In this document: positions 929 to 27,057 of the stretch, piece after piece
Numbering within the stretch: position 1 is the first letter of the stretch
How the letters are laid out: each line of letters opens with the position of its first letter
Source: Polaromonas sp.
GTDB lineage: Bacteria; Pseudomonadota; Gammaproteobacteria; Burkholderiales; Burkholderiaceae_C
Reading direction: 5' to 3'
Assembly (NCBI GenBank): GCA_026400075.1
Contig: JAPLPS010000077.1
Location: 1 to 33,602 of the forward strand
Length of the DNA stretch: 33,602 nt
Program-made: the position numbers and the translations under genes
The notes under the pieces: generated by a model
What the model saw: only the letters and a program-made list of their open reading frames with translations
Told to the model about the DNA's origin: nothing
Databases searched by the model: none

Positions 929-2035
929 TTAAATCCGCATCGGCATCACAACGTACTTGAACGCCGTGTTGTCGGGAATCGTCAGCAGCGCCGAGCTGTT
1001 CGAGTCGGCCAGCTCGATTTTCACCAGATCCTGGTTCATGTTGTTCAGCGCGTCGATCAGGTAGGTGACGTTAAAGCCGATTTCAATCGCCGGGCCGTCG
1101 TAGTCAATGTCGAGCTCGTCCATCGCCTCTTCCTGCTCGGCGTTGTTCGAGGCGACGCGCAGCGTGCCCGGCTCGATGTTCAGGCGCACGCCCTTGAACT
1201 TTTCGCTGGTCAAAATGGCGGTGCGCTGCAGGCTGCGCAGCAGCGGCTCACGGCCCAGCGTGATGATGTTCTTGTGGTTGCGCGGAATCACGCGGTTGTA
1301 ATCGGGGAACTTGCCCTCGACCAGCTTGGTGACGAATTCCATGCCTTCAAAGCTGAACTTGGCCTGGTTGCCGGCAAACTGCATTTCAATCGCGCCTTCC
1401 TTGTCGCTGAGCAGGCGCTGCATTTCCAGCACCGTCTTGCGCGGCAGGATCACTTCCTGCTTGGGCACTTCCACGTCCAGCGTCGCCGACGAAAACGCCA
1501 GCCGGTGGCCGTCAGTCGCCACGAGGCTCAATTGCTTGCCTTCGGCGACAAACAAAATGCCGTTCAGGTAGTAGCGGATGTCATGCACGGCCATCGCAAA
1601 CGACACCTGGTTCAGCAGCTCTTTCAGCACCTTTTGCGGCACCGAGAAGGTCGGGCCAAAGCTGGCCGCTTCCTGCACCAGCGGAAAGTCCTCGGCGGGC
1701 AGCGTCTGCAGCGTGAAGCGGCTCTTGCCGCCTTTCAAAATCAGCTTGTTCTGCGCCGATTCGAGCGACACGGTCTGGTCGCTCGGCATCGAGCGCAGGA
1801 TGTCGATCAGCTTGCGCGCGCCGACGGTGGTGGCAAAGTCGCCCTCGTCGCCGTCGAGTTCGGCGCTGGTGCGGATCTGGATTTCCAGATCGCTGGTGGT
1901 CAGCTGCAGCTGCGCGCCGGTTTTGCGGATCAGCACATTGGCCAGAATCGGCAGGGTGTGGCGGCGCTCGACAATCCCGGCGACCGATTGCAACACGGCC
2001 AGAAATTTGTCTTGTGTGGCTTTAAGAACAATCAT
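929..2035 (-). CDS. dnaN: DNA polymerase III subunit beta (sliding clamp)
   Basis: 368 aa: MIVLKATQDKFLAVLQSVAGIVERRHTLPILANVLI...YVVMPMRI; located between dnaA and gyrB. Confidence 0.98.
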   Translation of the reverse strand: MIVLKATQDKFLAVLQSVAGIVERRHTLPILANVLIRKTGAQLQLTTSDLEIQIRTSAELDGDEGDFATTVGARKLIDILRSMPSDQTVSLESAQNKLILKGGKSRFTLQTLPAEDFPLVQEAASFGPTFSVPQKVLKELLNQVSFAMAVHDIRYYLNGILFVAEGKQLSLVATDGHRLAFSSATLDVEVPKQEVILPRKTVLEMQRLLSDKEGAIEMQFAGNQAKFSFEGMEFVTKLVEGKFPDYNRVIPRNHKNIITLGREPLLRSLQRTAILTSEKFKGVRLNIEPGTLRVASNNAEQEEAMDELDIDYDGPAIEIGFNVTYLIDALNNMNQDLVKIELADSNSSALLTIPDNTAFKYVVMPMRI

Positions 2036-2114
2036 TTTTTTCCTCAGTCTTTCTCTTCAATGCTTCATTTTTTCAGGGTGCGTCAAGCAGCAGGCGTCCA
2101 TTGTCAACTGCTTC

Positions 2115-3509
2115 TCAGCCTTTGAGTGTTTGTTCCAGCACATGCAGTTGCTGGTTCAGTTCGCTGAGCAGCTTGCGCTCAGCGACTATTTTGCGCACCG
2201 CGTACAACACCGTCGTGTGGTCACGCCCGCCAAACAGCTCGCCGATTTCGGGCAGGCTTTTTTGCGTCAGCTCCTTGGCCAGGTACATCGCAATCTGGCG
2301 CGGCCGCACGATGTTGGCCGGGCGCTTTTTCGAGTGCATGTCGGCGATTTTTATTTTGTAAAAATCCGCTACAGTTTTCTGGATGTTTTCCACCGAGATC
2401 TGCCGGTTCTGGATCGACAGCAGATCGCGCAGCGAGTCGCGCGCCAGCTGGATCGACAAATCCTTGTGATTGAAGCGCGAGTAGGCGAGCATTTTGCGCA
2501 GTGCGCCTTCGAGCTCGCGCACGTTGGAACGCACATTCTTGGCGACAAAAAACGCCACATCTTCGGGCAGGATCGCGCCCTCGGCATCGGCCTTGCGGAT
2601 CAGGATGGCGACGCGCATTTCCAGCTCCGGCGGCTCAATCGCCACCGTCAGGCCGGAGTCAAAGCGTGACACCAGGCGCTCGTGGATGTCGCTCAGGCCC
2701 TTCGGATAGGTGTCGCTGGTCATCACGATGTGCGATTTTTTCGCCAGCAGCGCTTCAAAGGCGTTGAAAAACTCTTCCTGGGTGCGGTCTTTGTTCGCCA
2801 GAAACTGCACATCGTCGATCAGCAGCAGATCGAGCGCGTGGTAGCGCGCCTTGAAGTCCTCGAAAGTCTTGCGCTGGTAAGCCTTGACAACGTCCGAGAC
2901 AAACTGCTCGGCGTGGATGTACAGCACCTTGGCGGCCGGGTTGTCGGCGAGCAGCTTGTTGCCGATGGCGTGCATCAGGTGGGTTTTGCCCAGACCGACG
3001 CCGCCGTAAATGAACAAAGGGTTGTACAGCTGGCCCAGGCTGTTGGCCACATGCAGCGCGGCGGCGCGCCCCATGCGGTTGGCTGTGCCCTCAATCAGCG
3101 TGTCAAAGGTCAGCGCCGAGTTGAGTCGGCTCTTGAAGACGGTTTTGGGCTTTTCCTCGGGCGCGCTGACGGGGGCGGGCTCGGCCGCGCCGACCGGTTC
3201 AAACTTTCTGACCTGCGCCTCGGCCTTGACCGGCGCCTCGCGCGGGGCCAGGATCAGCTCGATGGGCACTCGCTGGCCAGCGACTTTTTCCAGCAGGGCG
3301 GTGATGCGGGTCGCGTACTGGGCCCTGACCCAGTCGAGTTTGAAGCGGTTTCCGACCTGCACCGTCGCCTTGGACAGGTCTGGCGCGATGTTGACCACCA
3401 GCGGGCGAATCCAGGTGTTGAACTGCTGCTCGGGCAGCTCCTGGGCCAGAAATTCAACGCAAATTTGCCACAAACCGGGACTCACGGTACGCACGGAAGC
3501 CTTGCTCAT
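2115..3509 (-). CDS. dnaA: Chromosomal replication initiator protein DnaA
   Basis: 464 aa with Walker A ([16 protein letters not shown]), Walker B ([13 protein letters not shown]) and DnaA-box binding helix ([15 protein letters not shown]). Confidence 0.98.
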
Positions 3510-20897: not shown

Positions 20898-20905
20898 GCA
20901 ACGCC

Positions 20906-21730
20906 ATGCCCCAATTTGCCGCCAACCTGAACTGGCTCTACACCGAGCTGCCTTTTGCCGAGCGCTTTGCCGCCGCCGCCCGCGACGGCTTCAAGGCCGT
21001 CGAGCTGCTCTCGCCCTACGCGCTGCCCGCCGCCGAGCTGAAAACGCTGTTAAACGCCAGCGGCCTGCAACTGGTGCTGCTCAACACCCCGCCCGGCGGC
21101 ACGGACGCGGCCAGCATCGAAGCGGCCTGGGCGTCAAAAACCTGCTGGGGAACGGCCTGCCTGCTGGGCCGCGAGGCGGAATTCAATACCGGCCTGGCGC
21201 TGGCGCTGGACTACGCGCAGCAACTGAACTGCCCGCGCATTCACGTCATGGCGGGCGTGACGCACGAAGCCGCGCACGCCGCTTATGTGAATAACCTGCG
21301 CCACGCGGCAGCGCAGGCCGCCGCCGCTGGCGTGGACGCGCTGATCGAGCCGATTAACACCCGCGATATTCCCGGCTATTTTTTAAACCGGCAGGATCAG
21401 GCGCACGCGATATTGGATGAAGTCGGCGCGGCGAATTTAAAAGTGCAAATGGATTTGTACCACTGCCAGATCATGGAAGGCGATTTGGCAACCAAGCTGC
21501 GCCGCTACGTGCCGACGGGGCGGATTGGGCATATTCAAATCGCGGGCGTGCCGGGGCGGAATGAACCGGATTTTGGGGAGATTGATTACCGCTATTTATT
21601 GGCGCTGCTGGATGAGCTGGGGTATGACGGCTGGGTGGGGTGTGAGTATCGGCCGGTGCGCGGGGCGGTGGCTGAGGGAACTTCGGCGGGGCTAGGGTGG
21701 ATGAAGGAATTTTTTATCAGTAGCCTTTAA
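20906..21730 (+). CDS. hyi: Hydroxypyruvate isomerase
   Basis: [66 protein letters not shown]. Start ATG 20906. Confidence 0.9.
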
Positions 21731-21792
21731 ATTTTTAAATGTTTTGGTAAACTGAGATTACCTTTAAAAATTAATTTTTTGTTTTTTTGTAG
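21730..21792 (+). terminator. Terminator-like AT-rich hairpin after hyi
   Basis: AATTTTTAAA...TTTAAAAATT with inner GGTAA/TTACC and T-rich tail TTTTTTGTTTTTTTG. Confidence 0.6.
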
Positions 21793-21855
21793 CATCCCGC
21801 CTGTCTGTTTTGGTCGCTATGCTTGGCCATTTTAGTAATTTTATTCTTCTCATCA

Positions 21856-22920
21856 ATGATTCAACCAACACTTACAAGACGAATAGAGGATGCATTACAG
21901 GCATTGAATGCCGCATCCCCACTGGTAGAAATGCTTGCAGCCCTCGAAGTAATGCACCAGCACATTGACACTCATTTAAATGGAATGACAGAAGGTAGTA
22001 CTCAAGACATTAGTGGAAATGCACATTCTGTGCATGCCAAGCTCGCCTCATTGCCAACCATTACTAAGACCCTAAGTGCCAGAAAGCTTTTTCGTGAAGT
22101 AGAAGTCCTTGAAGGGCGTCTCTCGAAGGCGCTGAAAGATGGACTAGATGAGACTAAATATGTTGTTGAATTTTTAGGAATTCTTGATGAATTCGCTGAA
22201 GCTTACAACGCCTATGTCGTACACCAAACGGGTAAGAATGCTCTTCCTTTGTTATTTATAGCGCGACGATTAACTCAGGCTTTTTCAAGTTTTCAGGGAT
22301 TTCTGGAGTACATACTGGCAAACTCCTCGTATATTTTGAGTCGTAGAGAGAATGAGGCTGAATTTTCGCTTGTACTCACTAACGTCACAGATATTCAAGC
22401 ATTTTCCGAAAAATTAGCAGCCCTGAATGCTTTATATCTTGAAATTTGCTATTTGCTTGGAGTTTCCGTTCCATCGCATCCACTTCGTATAGGGAAAATT
22501 GAATCGGGAAGCCTTTGGACAAAGTTGTTTGGAGATACAAGAGCAGTCGGCCTAATGATTTCTTTGATTGAAGGAGGTATTCATTTTTTCCATCGTAATT
22601 ACACAAAAGAAGGGAAAATTGCAGCAATTCCTAAAAAACTAGAGTCATTGAATGAAATGCTTGATTTTTCCAACCGACTCAAGGAAAGTGGATGTGATGT
22701 AACTGAAATTCAAGAGAAAATTGCAAAGGGCGCGGCCATCATCACTGATAACCTAAATACTCTCTTATCGGATCAGCCAGTTGTTGAGGTGAATGGAAAA
22801 ATTCTTTCCATTGGCCAGGAACTGCAAAAAGCACTCCTTGAACAAATCGCTATCCAAAAAATTGGATATGTACCTTCACCTGATCCGGTTCTTGGACTCA
22901 AACCGCCAGATCAAACTTAA
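21856..22920 (+). CDS. Orphan AT-rich hypothetical protein, mostly helical, no recognised domain
   Basis: Long ORF with markedly lower GC and different codon use than neighbours. ATG 21856 (MIQPTLTRRIEDALQALN) preferred over TTG 21823. Confidence 0.8.
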   Translation: MIQPTLTRRIEDALQALNAASPLVEMLAALEVMHQHIDTHLNGMTEGSTQDISGNAHSVHAKLASLPTITKTLSARKLFREVEVLEGRLSKALKDGLDETKYVVEFLGILDEFAEAYNAYVVHQTGKNALPLLFIARRLTQAFSSFQGFLEYILANSSYILSRRENEAEFSLVLTNVTDIQAFSEKLAALNALYLEICYLLGVSVPSHPLRIGKIESGSLWTKLFGDTRAVGLMISLIEGGIHFFHRNYTKEGKIAAIPKKLESLNEMLDFSNRLKESGCDVTEIQEKIAKGAAIITDNLNTLLSDQPVVEVNGKILSIGQELQKALLEQIAIQKIGYVPSPDPVLGLKPPDQT

Positions 22921-22990
22921 TCGTCAAGAATGTGGTGGTTCGATTGAAATTGAGCTGCCTTTGCAATGCCACCAGGGCGCGGCAAGGCAA

Positions 22991-23491
22991 TCACCCCGCC
23001 ATCACCCGCCGCGCATCCTTCAACAGCAGCAGCAACTGATCCTCCCGCAGCGGCGACGCCTCAAAACCAAACCGCCGATAAAACCGCGCCGCCTCTTCAT
23101 CCATCGGGTGCGTCAGCAGGGCGCGAATCCCGGCCTGGTCTGAAATCATCAGCGCCCGCCGGATGGCATCTTTCAGCAGCCCGATGCCAATGCCGCGCCC
23201 CTGATCCTGCACAGCCACGCCCAGCCGCGCCAAAATCACCACCGGCAGCGGGTATTGACCCATGCCTTTGCGGATGCGCTCCGGCGCCTCCAGCGTGTCC
23301 ACCTGGCCGACGGTCAGGCTGAAAAATCCCGCCACCCGCTCGCCCTCAGCGGCCACAAAGGTTTTGGCCGACCCGCTGGACTGCGCCTGCCGGGCGTGGC
23401 GAATCAGCCAGTCGTTGAGCGCGGGTTTGCCACAGTCAAACGTGTCCAGCCGATGCCGCGCCTGCAACGGTTCGGGCGCGCCCAGCGTCAC
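22991..23491 (-). CDS. GNAT-family N-acetyltransferase toxin (TacT/AtaT-like)
   Basis: HRLDTFDCGKPALNDWLIRHARQAQSSGSAKTFVAAEGERVAGFFSLTVG...LGVAVQDQGRGIGIGLLKDAIRRAL...HPMDEEAARFYRRFGFEASP. GTG start overlaps the antitoxin stop (GTGA); ORF-track start 23800 is artefactual. Confidence 0.92.
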   Translation of the reverse strand: MTLGAPEPLQARHRLDTFDCGKPALNDWLIRHARQAQSSGSAKTFVAAEGERVAGFFSLTVGQVDTLEAPERIRKGMGQYPLPVVILARLGVAVQDQGRGIGIGLLKDAIRRALMISDQAGIRALLTHPMDEEAARFYRRFGFEASPLREDQLLLLLKDARRVMAG

Positions 23492-23787
23492 GCCGCATCC
23501 CACGGCGCTTTGCGCGCAAACAAGTCGCGCAGGCCGGGGTTGTCCTTGGGCGGCGCGTCCAGCGCGTCCATCAGCGCGCCGTACTGGCTGCCGGTCACCA
23601 TGAACAGCCGCTGATCGAGCAAAGTCTGCTCGGCGGCATGGCAGGCGCTGTCCAGAATGAAGTCGGTCAGCGACTTGTGCGCGGCGTCGGCGGCGCGGCG
23701 CAGGATGGCTTCCTGCTGCGGTGTGGCGCGCAAGCCCAGACGGGCAGAGCGCGAGGCGCGGGCGGGCGGGGCAAGTGTCGGTGTCAT
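23488..23787 (-). CDS. DUF1778-family antitoxin (TacA-like)
   Basis: RSARLGLRATPQQEAILRRAADAAHKSLTDFILDSACHAAEQTLLDQRLF; directly upstream of the GNAT toxin. Confidence 0.92.
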   Translation of the reverse strand: MTPTLAPPARASRSARLGLRATPQQEAILRRAADAAHKSLTDFILDSACHAAEQTLLDQRLFMVTGSQYGALMDALDAPPKDNPGLRDLFARKAPWDAA

Positions 23788-23814
23788 GGGCGGCCTTCAA
23801 AACGGGGAATAAGC

Positions 23815-23847
23815 TTGAATGTTAGTACAAATGACAAACAAATTCAA
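23815..23847. promoter_or_regulatory. Candidate toxin-antitoxin operator
   Basis: TTGAAT-21 nt-ATTCAA dyad upstream of the antitoxin gene. Confidence 0.3.
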
Positions 23848-23910
23848 ACCGCCATCTTTGACAACCCGCACCCGCCAGGCATGCAAAAATCCCGCAAACC
23901 CCCAGGAGCC

Positions 23911-24498
23911 ATGCCCATGAAATCCTACTCAGCCTATTTCGTCCGCGCCGCCGCTGTTGAACAAGCCCGGGCTGTGTTCGGCGCCAGCGTTCAGCCCTTG
24001 CCCGATTCGCCGTGGCTGCTGTGCGCCTACCGGCCCGATGACGAGCTGCCCGATGAAGACGTGCTGCTCGGCGAAACCTCCCTCACGCAGGCCAAATCGG
24101 CGGCGCTGGGCGAGGTGTTTTTTGTCTATGGCGACACCTCCGTCGATTTTTTTGTCTATGAGCACGCCCAAGACGGCGAGCTGCTGCGCAAGCTGGTCTG
24201 GGCGACTCTGCCCGAGGGCGACTGGGATGATTGCGGCTGGGCGCTGGTCGAGGGCGCGCCCGAGGCGTGGGAAGCGGCTTTGTTCCGCGCCGACGGTCTG
24301 GCGCGCCACCTCTACAACGAGTCGCAACGCCTGCAAGACGAAGGGCGAGGCGACGAAGTGGCCGCCATGCAGGCCGAGGCTGAAAAGTTCTGGGCCGCAA
24401 AACAAATCACGGCGGGCCAGACCTTACCGATGGGCGACGGCACGGTTGCCATGCTAGTCGAAAAGAGCTATGGCATTGACCGTTTTCAAATCGGATAA
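23911..24498 (+). CDS. Hypothetical acidic cytoplasmic protein
   Basis: MPMKSYSAYFVRAAAVEQARAVFGASVQPL... preceded by CCCAGGAGCC; no known motif. Confidence 0.75.
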   Translation: MPMKSYSAYFVRAAAVEQARAVFGASVQPLPDSPWLLCAYRPDDELPDEDVLLGETSLTQAKSAALGEVFFVYGDTSVDFFVYEHAQDGELLRKLVWATLPEGDWDDCGWALVEGAPEAWEAALFRADGLARHLYNESQRLQDEGRGDEVAAMQAEAEKFWAAKQITAGQTLPMGDGTVAMLVEKSYGIDRFQIG

Positions 24499-24546
24499 TG
24501 ATTTGGCCAGCGGGTGCGTGGCGTGGCCGCTTTTTCAGGAGCCATC

Positions 24547-24930
24547 ATGAAACTTTCAAAACTATGCGCTGTTTTTCTTCTGACGCCTGCGCTGGCCTTG
24601 TGCGCAGAGTGGCATTGCTGGAATCAGGACATGGAGGTCTCCTGCAGCCAGACAGTATGTGAAGCAGCGGAGGCATTTACCCCGATAGATGTCACGGTTA
24701 GCGATCTCGGTTCGATGACCATCTGTGCTTATTCGGGCTGCTGGAGTGGCAAAGGAAAAGTGCTGAAATCCGGCGCTCACGTCATCATTTCGGCCAATAA
24801 GCTGAAGTGGAGCGGCACGTCACCGAATCCGGCAACTTTCATCGTCGGCATTGATAAAACCGACAACGTAGCCGTGATCAAAGGCTCGAATTTCGCCATG
24901 CCTCTGATCTGCAAAAGCGGCGGCGCTTAA
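24547..24930 (+). CDS. Hypothetical secreted Cys-containing protein
   Basis: Signal peptide MKLSKLCAVFLLTPALALCA then small domain with CW/C.Q..C/CAYSGCW/C cysteines; AGGAG upstream. Confidence 0.75.
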   Translation: MKLSKLCAVFLLTPALALCAEWHCWNQDMEVSCSQTVCEAAEAFTPIDVTVSDLGSMTICAYSGCWSGKGKVLKSGAHVIISANKLKWSGTSPNPATFIVGIDKTDNVAVIKGSNFAMPLICKSGGA

Positions 24931-25514
24931 GCTGGGATTCTCGATGTGCTGCAGGGCACGCCGATATCCCGCAGCTGATGTTCGCTCACGACAAAGCCGC
25001 TCAGGCCGTAAGGCAGCAGGGCGCTCGTCAGCTTTTGCTGCAGCCGCCCGGCCAGGCGCCTGAAATCCGGGGCGTCCCAAGTCAGCAAAAGCACCACCGT
25101 CAAGGGCTGGGCGCTGCCGCACCAGGCGTGAGGCTCCAAAGCGCGGTCTTGCGCACGCTGTGCAAAATTCAGCGCGACCAGCGTGTCGCGCATTTTTTCA
25201 ATCACTTCGTCGATGACGAAGGGCTTGCGCCGCTCTGCGTACACGATGCGTTCAAACCCTTTTTCCTTGAGCCAGCGGCGCGTGGTGGCCACTTCTTCCG
25301 GTTCTGCAGGCGACAGACGCGGCAAGCTTGCCAGCTCATCGCCTTGGCAATCCTTGATCTCTATCCACCAATGCCGCCCTTGGCTGGTGGCCAGAATATC
25401 CATCGCTTTGCAGTGGCCAAATTGCTGCCGGTGCCAATCAGTCGCATCGAACTTGATGGCCTCGCAGCCTTCGTCAAATTCGCATTCCAGCGTGCCCTCG
25501 GTCAGTCGGGTCAT
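24927..25514 (-). CDS. Hypothetical protein with PD-(D/E)XK-like motif
   Basis: 195 aa, CKAMDILATSQGRHWWIEIKDCQGDE (D-x(n)-E-x-K layout); ATGA overlap with upstream ATPase gene. Confidence 0.72.
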   Translation of the reverse strand: MTRLTEGTLECEFDEGCEAIKFDATDWHRQQFGHCKAMDILATSQGRHWWIEIKDCQGDELASLPRLSPAEPEEVATTRRWLKEKGFERIVYAERRKPFVIDEVIEKMRDTLVALNFAQRAQDRALEPHAWCGSAQPLTVVLLLTWDAPDFRRLAGRLQQKLTSALLPYGLSGFVVSEHQLRDIGVPCSTSRIPA

Positions 25515-26575
25515 GCGCTGGCTCCGGGGTTTCCAGCCGAAAGCTCCCGGTCGTATTGCGCGAGTTCCTCGTCGAGCGCGACAAGATGGCTCAAACTCGC
25601 CAGACTATCGACCTGCTGGCTGCTCACGCTCAAATCGCCGGGCTGACGGTTCAGGCCAATGAAGCGCTGGGCAATCGCTTGCTGGCGCGACAGCAAATCG
25701 AGTTCCTTGAGCAAAAAGAAACTGTGCGTGGCGATAAAAACCTGCACCCCGCGCAGGCACAGCGCATGAATCACCTGCGCCGCCAGCCGGATCAGGCGCG
25801 GGTTCAGGTTGGCCTCGGGCTCGTCCCAGAACAGATAGCCCTGGGCCTGAATGATGCCGTTGGAAATCAGCCGCGCCAGCATCGCCAGCTTGCGGTAGCC
25901 CTCGGCCACGAGCGGCATTTCCATGTTGCCGCTGCCGGGAATGTTCAGGTAAAAACGCCCGTTGTTGTCCAGCACCACCTTGCCGCCCAAAGCCGTTTCC
26001 AGCGGTTCGAGCAGCGTGGCCGTGGCGTCGGCGCGCTTGCCCTTGAGCGTCAAGGCGCCCAGATGGATGCAGGTGTCGCGCCATGTCTCTTCAAACTCCA
26101 GGTAGTGGTTTTCATAGACCGAGACAAAGCCGGGGTAAATGGTCAGCAGTTCGCGGGTGGGCAGGTAGAGCGGGCTTTGCGCCTCCCAGCGGGCGGGCGG
26201 CTGATCGACCTGCACGTCGGTTTTTGAGTTGGTGGCAAAACTGATGTGGGTATTGAGGCTGGCATCGTCAAAAACCAGCGCCACTTCGCAGCGTTCGCGC
26301 CCTTGCTTGCGGCTGGCCAGACGGCCCAGGGACTCGGGGCGAAAAACGCCGGTCAGCTTGTCGCCATAGGCTTTTTGCAGATAGGTTTTGGTCGGCTCCG
26401 TGCCGTTGAGCTTTTTGCCCGCCTGCGCGCTGGTGGCGATCAGCGCATAGGCGAGTTTGAGCAGGTGCGATTTACCGGCGCTGTTTTCGCCGACGATGAC
26501 GTTGAGTCCCTTGGAAAAATGAAATTGCTCGTCATGAAAAACGGTGAATTTCTTCACCTGCAGTTGCTCAAGCAT
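25511..26575 (-). CDS. AAA/ABC-type ATPase (AAA_21/OLD-like, no visible TOPRIM)
   Basis: Walker A GENSAGKSHLLKLAYAL; signature-like AEGYRKLAMLARLI; Walker B YLFWDEPEANLNP; H-loop ATHS. Confidence 0.9.
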   Translation of the reverse strand: MLEQLQVKKFTVFHDEQFHFSKGLNVIVGENSAGKSHLLKLAYALIATSAQAGKKLNGTEPTKTYLQKAYGDKLTGVFRPESLGRLASRKQGRERCEVALVFDDASLNTHISFATNSKTDVQVDQPPARWEAQSPLYLPTRELLTIYPGFVSVYENHYLEFEETWRDTCIHLGALTLKGKRADATATLLEPLETALGGKVVLDNNGRFYLNIPGSGNMEMPLVAEGYRKLAMLARLISNGIIQAQGYLFWDEPEANLNPRLIRLAAQVIHALCLRGVQVFIATHSFFLLKELDLLSRQQAIAQRFIGLNRQPGDLSVSSQQVDSLASLSHLVALDEELAQYDRELSAGNPGASA

Positions 26576-26637
26576 CGGGTGCCCTCTTGTCTGTTCTGTT
26601 TGCCGCTGTGCGCTGTGGAGGGGGTATTTTCAGCGCA

Positions 26638-27057
26638 TTAATCCGCCAGCCCGCTCAAAATCGGGCAGTCGGGCCGCTGGTTGCCCTGGCAGCAACTGGC
26701 CAGTTCCTGCAGCGTCTGGCGCATGGCCTGCATTTCGGCGATGCGCCGCTCCAGGTCGGCGACATGGGCCAGCGCGATGCGTTTGACATCGGCGCTGGCG
26801 CGGCTCTGGTTTTGCCACAGTTTGAGCAGCTCGGCAATTTCAACCATGCTGAACCCCAGCAGCCGGGCGCGGCGGATAAAGCGCAGCGTGTGAATCTGCG
26901 CCTGGCCGTATTGCCGGTAGCCCGCATCGGTGCGCGGCACGGCGGGCAGCAGGCCCAGCGTTTCGTAGTGGCGAATCATTTTTGCCGACACGCCGGACTG
27001 GGCAGCGGCCTGGCCGATGTTGAACGGGCCAGAACTGGCCGCAGGCGCGGCGCTCAT
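26638..27057 (-). CDS. cueR: MerR-family copper-responsive regulator
   Basis: MerR helix-turn-helix; C-terminal metal loop [10 protein letters not shown]; 4-nt overlap with copA. Confidence 0.93.

Follow-up and report, generated by a model that had tools for sequence, protein, structure and literature searches.

Two overlapping genes in the 33,602-nucleotide stretch of Polaromonas sp. DNA analysed here (the window) probably constitute a HEC-02-type defence operon that stands alone and belongs to a divergent subtype, in which an ATPase sensor would activate a tail-held nuclease against phage. Both open reading frames, on the minus strand and joined by an ATGA overlap, are present as a sequence-only reading of the window had described (Table 1). 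That reading had proposed a defence-like pair of ATPase and nuclease-like protein, and had taken it to be an undescribed system. The first part stands on the coupling of the genes, the fold of the partner and the defence links of relatives. The second part falls: PADLOC HEC-02 models match both proteins, if weakly for the partner, the pairing itself is published, and WonAB follows the same design.

Table 1 Features of the HEC-02-type gene pair, in window coordinates.
Feature	Coordinates	Strand	Length, residues or basis
HEC-02 family ATPase, OLD/ABC type	25511..26575	(-)	354 aa; ORF; PADLOC PDLC04146, Pfam
PD-(D/E)XK-like partner	24927..25514	(-)	195 aa; D39, E52, K54, K107; PADLOC PDLC04228
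ATGA shared by the ATPase stop and the partner start	25511..25514	(-)	sequence
ATPase C-terminal segment, residues about 296-348, tail LDEELAQYDRE	25532..25690	(-)	putative nuclease-docking element
Partner insert region, around residues 58-99	25218..25343	(-)	alignments

The ATPase retains its motifs intact, namely Walker A GENSAGKS, Walker B LFWDEPEANLNP and H-loop ATHS; all three had been picked out in the sequence-only reading, and their key residues prove invariant, with G34, K35, D251, E252 and H284 unchanged in 39 family sequences. The protein matches the PADLOC HEC-02 model PDLC04146 almost end to end (E 2.9e-152, 505 bits, residues 1-347 on positions 1-342 of 344) and finds AAA_21 and AAA_15 in Pfam. 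Its predicted model has a pLDDT of 87, falling to 57-59 over residues 331-350 when the protein is modelled alone, and Foldseek places it closest to SMC/Rad50 heads and Septu PtuA (E 4e-13 to 3e-12). No TOPRIM domain was found in the 354-aa protein, whose matches are of AAA/SMC type only, in agreement with the earlier remark that none was visible.

The partner carries MDILATSQGRHWWIEIKD, in which a D-x(n)-E-x-K layout had been seen, and the layout holds up across the family: among 59 partners, D23, E52, K54 and K107 are invariant, and K36, D39, D55 and L112 are conserved at 90% or more. In the AlphaFold2 model (pLDDT 91.3, pTM 0.83, with residues 51-70 as the least confident stretch), D39 sits directly before strand 40-44 and E52 and K54 lie within strand 47-54, giving a D...E-x-K arrangement, while K107 is found on the long helix after strand 47-54, the same helix that carries E103. 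This is the layout of the PD-(D/E)XK superfamily, with the conserved D and E-x-K residues on neighbouring strands of the core. Among the top 50 Foldseek matches in the PDB, about half are PD-(D/E)XK nucleases (Cdn1, Hjc, BspD6I, FokI and Can2). The nuclease-like fold assumed from sequence is borne out in the arrangement of the model but not by any individually significant solved structure (Foldseek; best E 0.04, none below 0.001). Pfam and NCBIfam yielded no significant family for the partner, a search of PDB sequences with the partner profile no match, and a Foldseek search of viral structure models nothing significant. A nuclease fold is likely, and we infer that the partner would cut nucleic acid.

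By sequence match, both proteins can be placed in the already named candidate family HEC-02. The match of the partner to PDLC04228 is weak (E 7.5e-12, 43.6 bits, residues 5-123 on positions 4-114 of 199, for a model with no cut-off given). By the sequence-only reading's own account, a match of both proteins to an already named system would count against an undescribed one, and both do match, the partner at only 44 bits. HEC denotes a Hma-embedded candidate, found through 'guilt by embedding' (PMC12988326, PMC10855318, PMC11411939). HEC-02 is a family of PADLOC-DB 2.0.0, with the Payne et al. 2024 preprint, as cited in PMC11411939, as its source; no paper describing HEC-02 itself was found in the literature searched, which has bioRxiv outside its scope. 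In common with HEC-02, the window pair has an ATPase that matches the family model, the two-gene order, and relatives lying between HmaB and HmaC; it differs in its low-scoring partner, a roughly 33-residue insert, the QYDRE tail of the ATPase and its stand-alone location.

Several characterised systems invite comparison. WonAB, from the V. cholerae WASA-1 prophage, combines an OLD-ABC ATPase with a PD-(D/E)XK nuclease, is experimentally anti-phage, and stops phage ICP1 through abortive infection, arresting translation while genomic DNA is left intact (PMC12137116). By description, its architecture and motifs are those of the window pair, an operon of OLD-ABC ATPase and small PD-(D/E)XK nuclease; both parts of WonAB are needed, and its nuclease is predicted to contact C-terminal extensions of the ATPase. 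By the reported numbering and values, however, WonA has about 50 more residues from Walker A to H-loop (K34/H333 vs K35/H284), and WonB is a 16.1 kDa protein with catalytic K71, whereas the window partner has 195 aa and K54. More broadly, BREX loci and BREX-related (Hma) ones contain pairs of an OLD-ABC ATPase and a PD-(D/E)XK nuclease (PMC12839542). These OLD-ABC and REase dyads share with the HEC-02 pairs both the pairing and the location in Hma operons (partly called Type-1 BREX-related), but are described in bulk (PMC12839542).

Other candidates fit less well. PD-T4-4 likewise consists of an ATPase and a second gene, but its weak match to the window ATPase (E 4e-14) is limited to the generic ATPase region. 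PARIS (AriA/AriB) also sets an ABC ATPase sensor beside a separate nuclease effector; the effector AriB is a TOPRIM protein (DUF4435), and PARIS was rejected because the partner has no DUF4435 or TOPRIM match and shows a PD-(D/E)XK-like fold instead. OLD and Gabija were set aside for want of an ATPase-TOPRIM fusion, the 354-aa protein having AAA/SMC-type matches only. Septu PtuA has a similar ATPase fold (Foldseek 8eea, E 2.7e-12), but the window ATPase is shorter, and Septu was rejected since its second protein, PtuB, is an HNH protein and the partner has no HNH family match in Pfam or NCBIfam.

The two genes belong together well beyond the window. A scan of one genome per species, covering 84,980 species, returned 519 ATPase relatives, of which the best 80 were kept. 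Among these best 80 of 519, 74 loci have a partner homologue, recognised with the partner profile, directly downstream of the ATPase, in line with the coupling that the sequence-only reading had proposed. The 74 include three loci in which the homologue is split between frames (L025, L047 and L076), and in two of the six loci without a partner (L023 and L075) the contig runs out. The pairing is well above chance, and with the partner directly downstream at so many loci, the coupling of the two genes is strong and extends over Proteobacteria, Cyanobacteria, Planctomycetes and other groups.

Closer to home the pair is scarce. A close homologue of the ATPase at full length turned up in one (G023) of the 36 further species sampled in the genus; the HEC-02 pair of G023 (L085, 1253-2547) has a standard-type partner cut to 80 aa and an adjoining transposase-like gene. 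The partner has one other match among about 400 genomes of the order, no match in 368 other genomes of the class and none in plasmids, three of which hold relatives of the ATPase. Window-type partners were not found in viral contigs; a standard HEC-02 pair on a viral contig (L133, 5001-9395) adjoins a phage anti-repressor gene. Elsewhere, a HEC-02 ATPase (L016, 5001-6014) occurs with neither the C-terminal tail motif nor a partner gene. Most dN/dS estimates are saturated, and the usable values, one for the ATPase (0.045) and one for the partner (0.12), weakly suggest purifying selection on both genes.

The pair consists of accessory genes at a variable site, placed between cueR and sulP-side genes. 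Upstream of the ATPase lie what we take, by sequence recognition, to be a cueR-like regulator and a copper-type P-type ATPase. A 138-aa ORF (24514-24930) converges on the partner gene, its end overlapping the partner stop; it has no match in Pfam, NCBIfam or PADLOC. Past this and a 205-aa ORF sits the toxin-antitoxin pair that the sequence-only reading had placed alongside, and which is real: overlapping genes at 22991-23787 encode a TacA1 antitoxin (E 2.9e-25) and a GNAT acetyltransferase toxin (E 1.2e-8). A 365-aa ORF at 21823-22920 sits in DNA of low GC content (about 42%, against about 60%) and yields only a partial, weak ZorA match, with no match in Pfam or NCBIfam; it is probably of foreign origin. 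Across the genus, the cueR-sulP interval (window 20900-26640 compared with L120-L131) varies in content, holding a single alkB-like gene in L129 and L130 and elsewhere extending over several kilobases that include IS elements, a VapBC-like pair (L122) or a CAP12/TIR (PDC-S35) protein (L127). The window as a whole seems to be located close to the origin of chromosomal replication: we take the genes at 929-3509, by their recognisable sequence, to be dnaN and dnaA, with yidC- and mnmE-like ORFs further along.

Links to defence come chiefly from relatives. Among the best 80 of 519 loci, eight have an Hma operon context. The pair lies exactly between HmaB and HmaC in L007, L015, L055, L062 and L082, and also in L038, where the flanks are incomplete; in L022 it comes after HmaB, and in L012 (5001-6068) HmaB and HmaC flank an ATPase that has a QSDRY tail but no partner gene. 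L007 and L022 belong to the window's own subtype, and PADLOC confirmed HmaB and HmaC for the former and HmaB for the latter, with Hma matches also in the neighbour set that contains L012 and L082. In L022 (6636-9146), the pair is followed by an AAA_5 protein matching PDC-M26A (E 1e-52) and not by HmaC. Because most of the 80 homologues lie outside Hma, as does the window pair, which stands alone next to cueR, embedding is a criterion of discovery and not a property of each member. The window pair does not fall within any recognised defence operon, and its source genome holds no convincing Hma, only a weak partial match.

Defence genes within 5 kb of 18 loci were compared with those of 18 control regions, taken about 85-105 kb away in the same genomes. 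Hma alone clearly stands out, with no occurrence in the 18 control regions; other single matches occur on both sides, and outside the Hma cases the enrichment at the 18 loci is modest relative to controls. Individual neighbourhoods add to the case for defence. For example, PARIS-like AriA/AriB, a short IS-like ORF and a window-type HEC-02 pair follow one another in L168 (3062-7615), a small defence island, and pairs of related subtypes adjoin BREX PglX (L138) and AbiE (L136).

The divergent subtype comprises seven sequences, those of the window, L004, L005, L006, L007, L010 and L022 (six of the best 80 loci), and it is rarer than the standard version and appears to be new. In alignments, all seven partners are longer by about 33 residues in the stretch from EIKD to the helix with E103 and K107. 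Membership of this subtype accounts for the partner's weak PADLOC match: the window-type partners tested reach best scores of 44-67 bits, and standard partners 130-282 bits with PDLC04145. The seven ATPases all end in LDEELAQYDRE, which is absent from the other loci, most of which have QSDR[FY]. The seven form one clade in a partner tree built without the insert (SH-aLRT 99) and again in a tree of the ATPase tail (95), but not in the ATPase body (residues 1-280), where 3-4 changes are needed and a single clade is rejected (AU p 4e-60). The group was recognised from the same data as the trees; the one out-of-sample locus, L168, found later, has a window-type partner and a QYDRE tail, as predicted.

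Two further comparisons bear on the boundary. Between Halomonas L022 and Ectothiorhodospira L082, DNA identity is about 80% over much of hmaA and hmaB and continues into the ATPase gene as far as about codon 290; this homology is then lost, just past the H-loop, through the tail and the whole partner gene, with a breakpoint at about codons 280-297. When only the standard subtype is considered, partner divergence shows a partial correlation of 0.01 with ATPase residues 251-300 and of 0.53 with residues 301-350, segments outside the tail giving 0.22 or less. In essence, the trees and alignments show that tail and nuclease are inherited as one cassette and have moved between genomes together, and this joint inheritance points to the tail as a putative docking element.

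In the mechanism that we propose, the OLD/ABC ATPase would respond to a cue of phage infection, probably as an ABC-type dimer or higher oligomer. Its C-terminal tail would hold, and then activate, the PD-(D/E)XK partner, which once activated would cut nucleic acid, so that phage is stopped or infection aborted, as with WonAB. By analogy, RNA is slightly favoured as the substrate, because WonAB leaves genomic DNA intact while translation stops.

Physical contact would be the most attractive reason for the co-inheritance of tail and nuclease, but linkage alone could suffice, because the partner gene adjoins the tail and recombination would naturally start in the conserved Walker B/H-loop region. 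Such recombination would carry the downstream DNA along with no contact between tail and nuclease, an account that we find doubtful, if worth serious attention. It agrees with the L022/L082 breakpoint, which borders on the most conserved stretch, and with the position of the tail as the part of the ATPase gene nearest the partner gene. It sits less easily with the sharp rise in partial correlation, although a conserved recombination start could also yield such a step, with the lack of both tail and partner in L016, and with the predicted binding of the WonAB nuclease to C-terminal extensions of its ATPase (PMC12137116).

Other readings concern the function of the operon as a whole. The overlapping two-gene organisation, patchy distribution and nearby TacA/GNAT pair might suggest a toxin-antitoxin-like addiction module or mobile-element stability module, in which the ATPase restrains a toxic nuclease and senses no phage. 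We consider this unlikely, as exact placement in Hma operons and the association of relatives with BREX, PARIS and AbiE argue for defence, and tests of WonAB spoke against simple sequestration (PMC12137116). It is also improbable that the partner has lost catalysis and, as a degenerate REase fold, serves as a DNA or nucleotide sensor or a specificity subunit; inactive REases paired with NTPases have been proposed as sensors elsewhere (PMC12839542), but here E52, K54 and K107 are invariant in 59 sequences and D39 nearly so. A Rad50/RecN-like role in DNA repair or housekeeping, unconnected with defence, draws on SMC/Rad50 heads as the closest ATPase folds; it is very hard to credit when nearly all relatives lack the pair and its occurrences include defence operons and a phage-like contig.

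Taking defence as the preferred function, a more general proposition, which we rate about even, is that HEC-02 ATPases act as interchangeable sensor bodies, with the final ~55 residues of each forming the plug for a cognate nuclease. Recombination just past the H-loop would swap tail and nuclease as a cassette, giving new effector types to the same sensor inside and outside Hma, and the window would hold a previously unmodelled cassette. Because the subtype is poorly represented in the HEC-02 partner models of PADLOC-DB 2.0.0, surveys of genomes may overlook it.

Pairs of an ABC/OLD ATPase and a nuclease make up a large, mostly unexplained class of bacterial defence. The pair described here is real, named at the level of the family, and a divergent subtype with informative modular structure. 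Natural swaps of tail and nuclease on a near-identical ATPase body offer a genetics-ready test of communication between ATPase and nuclease, and the same swaps allow testing whether sensing and killing are separable modules.
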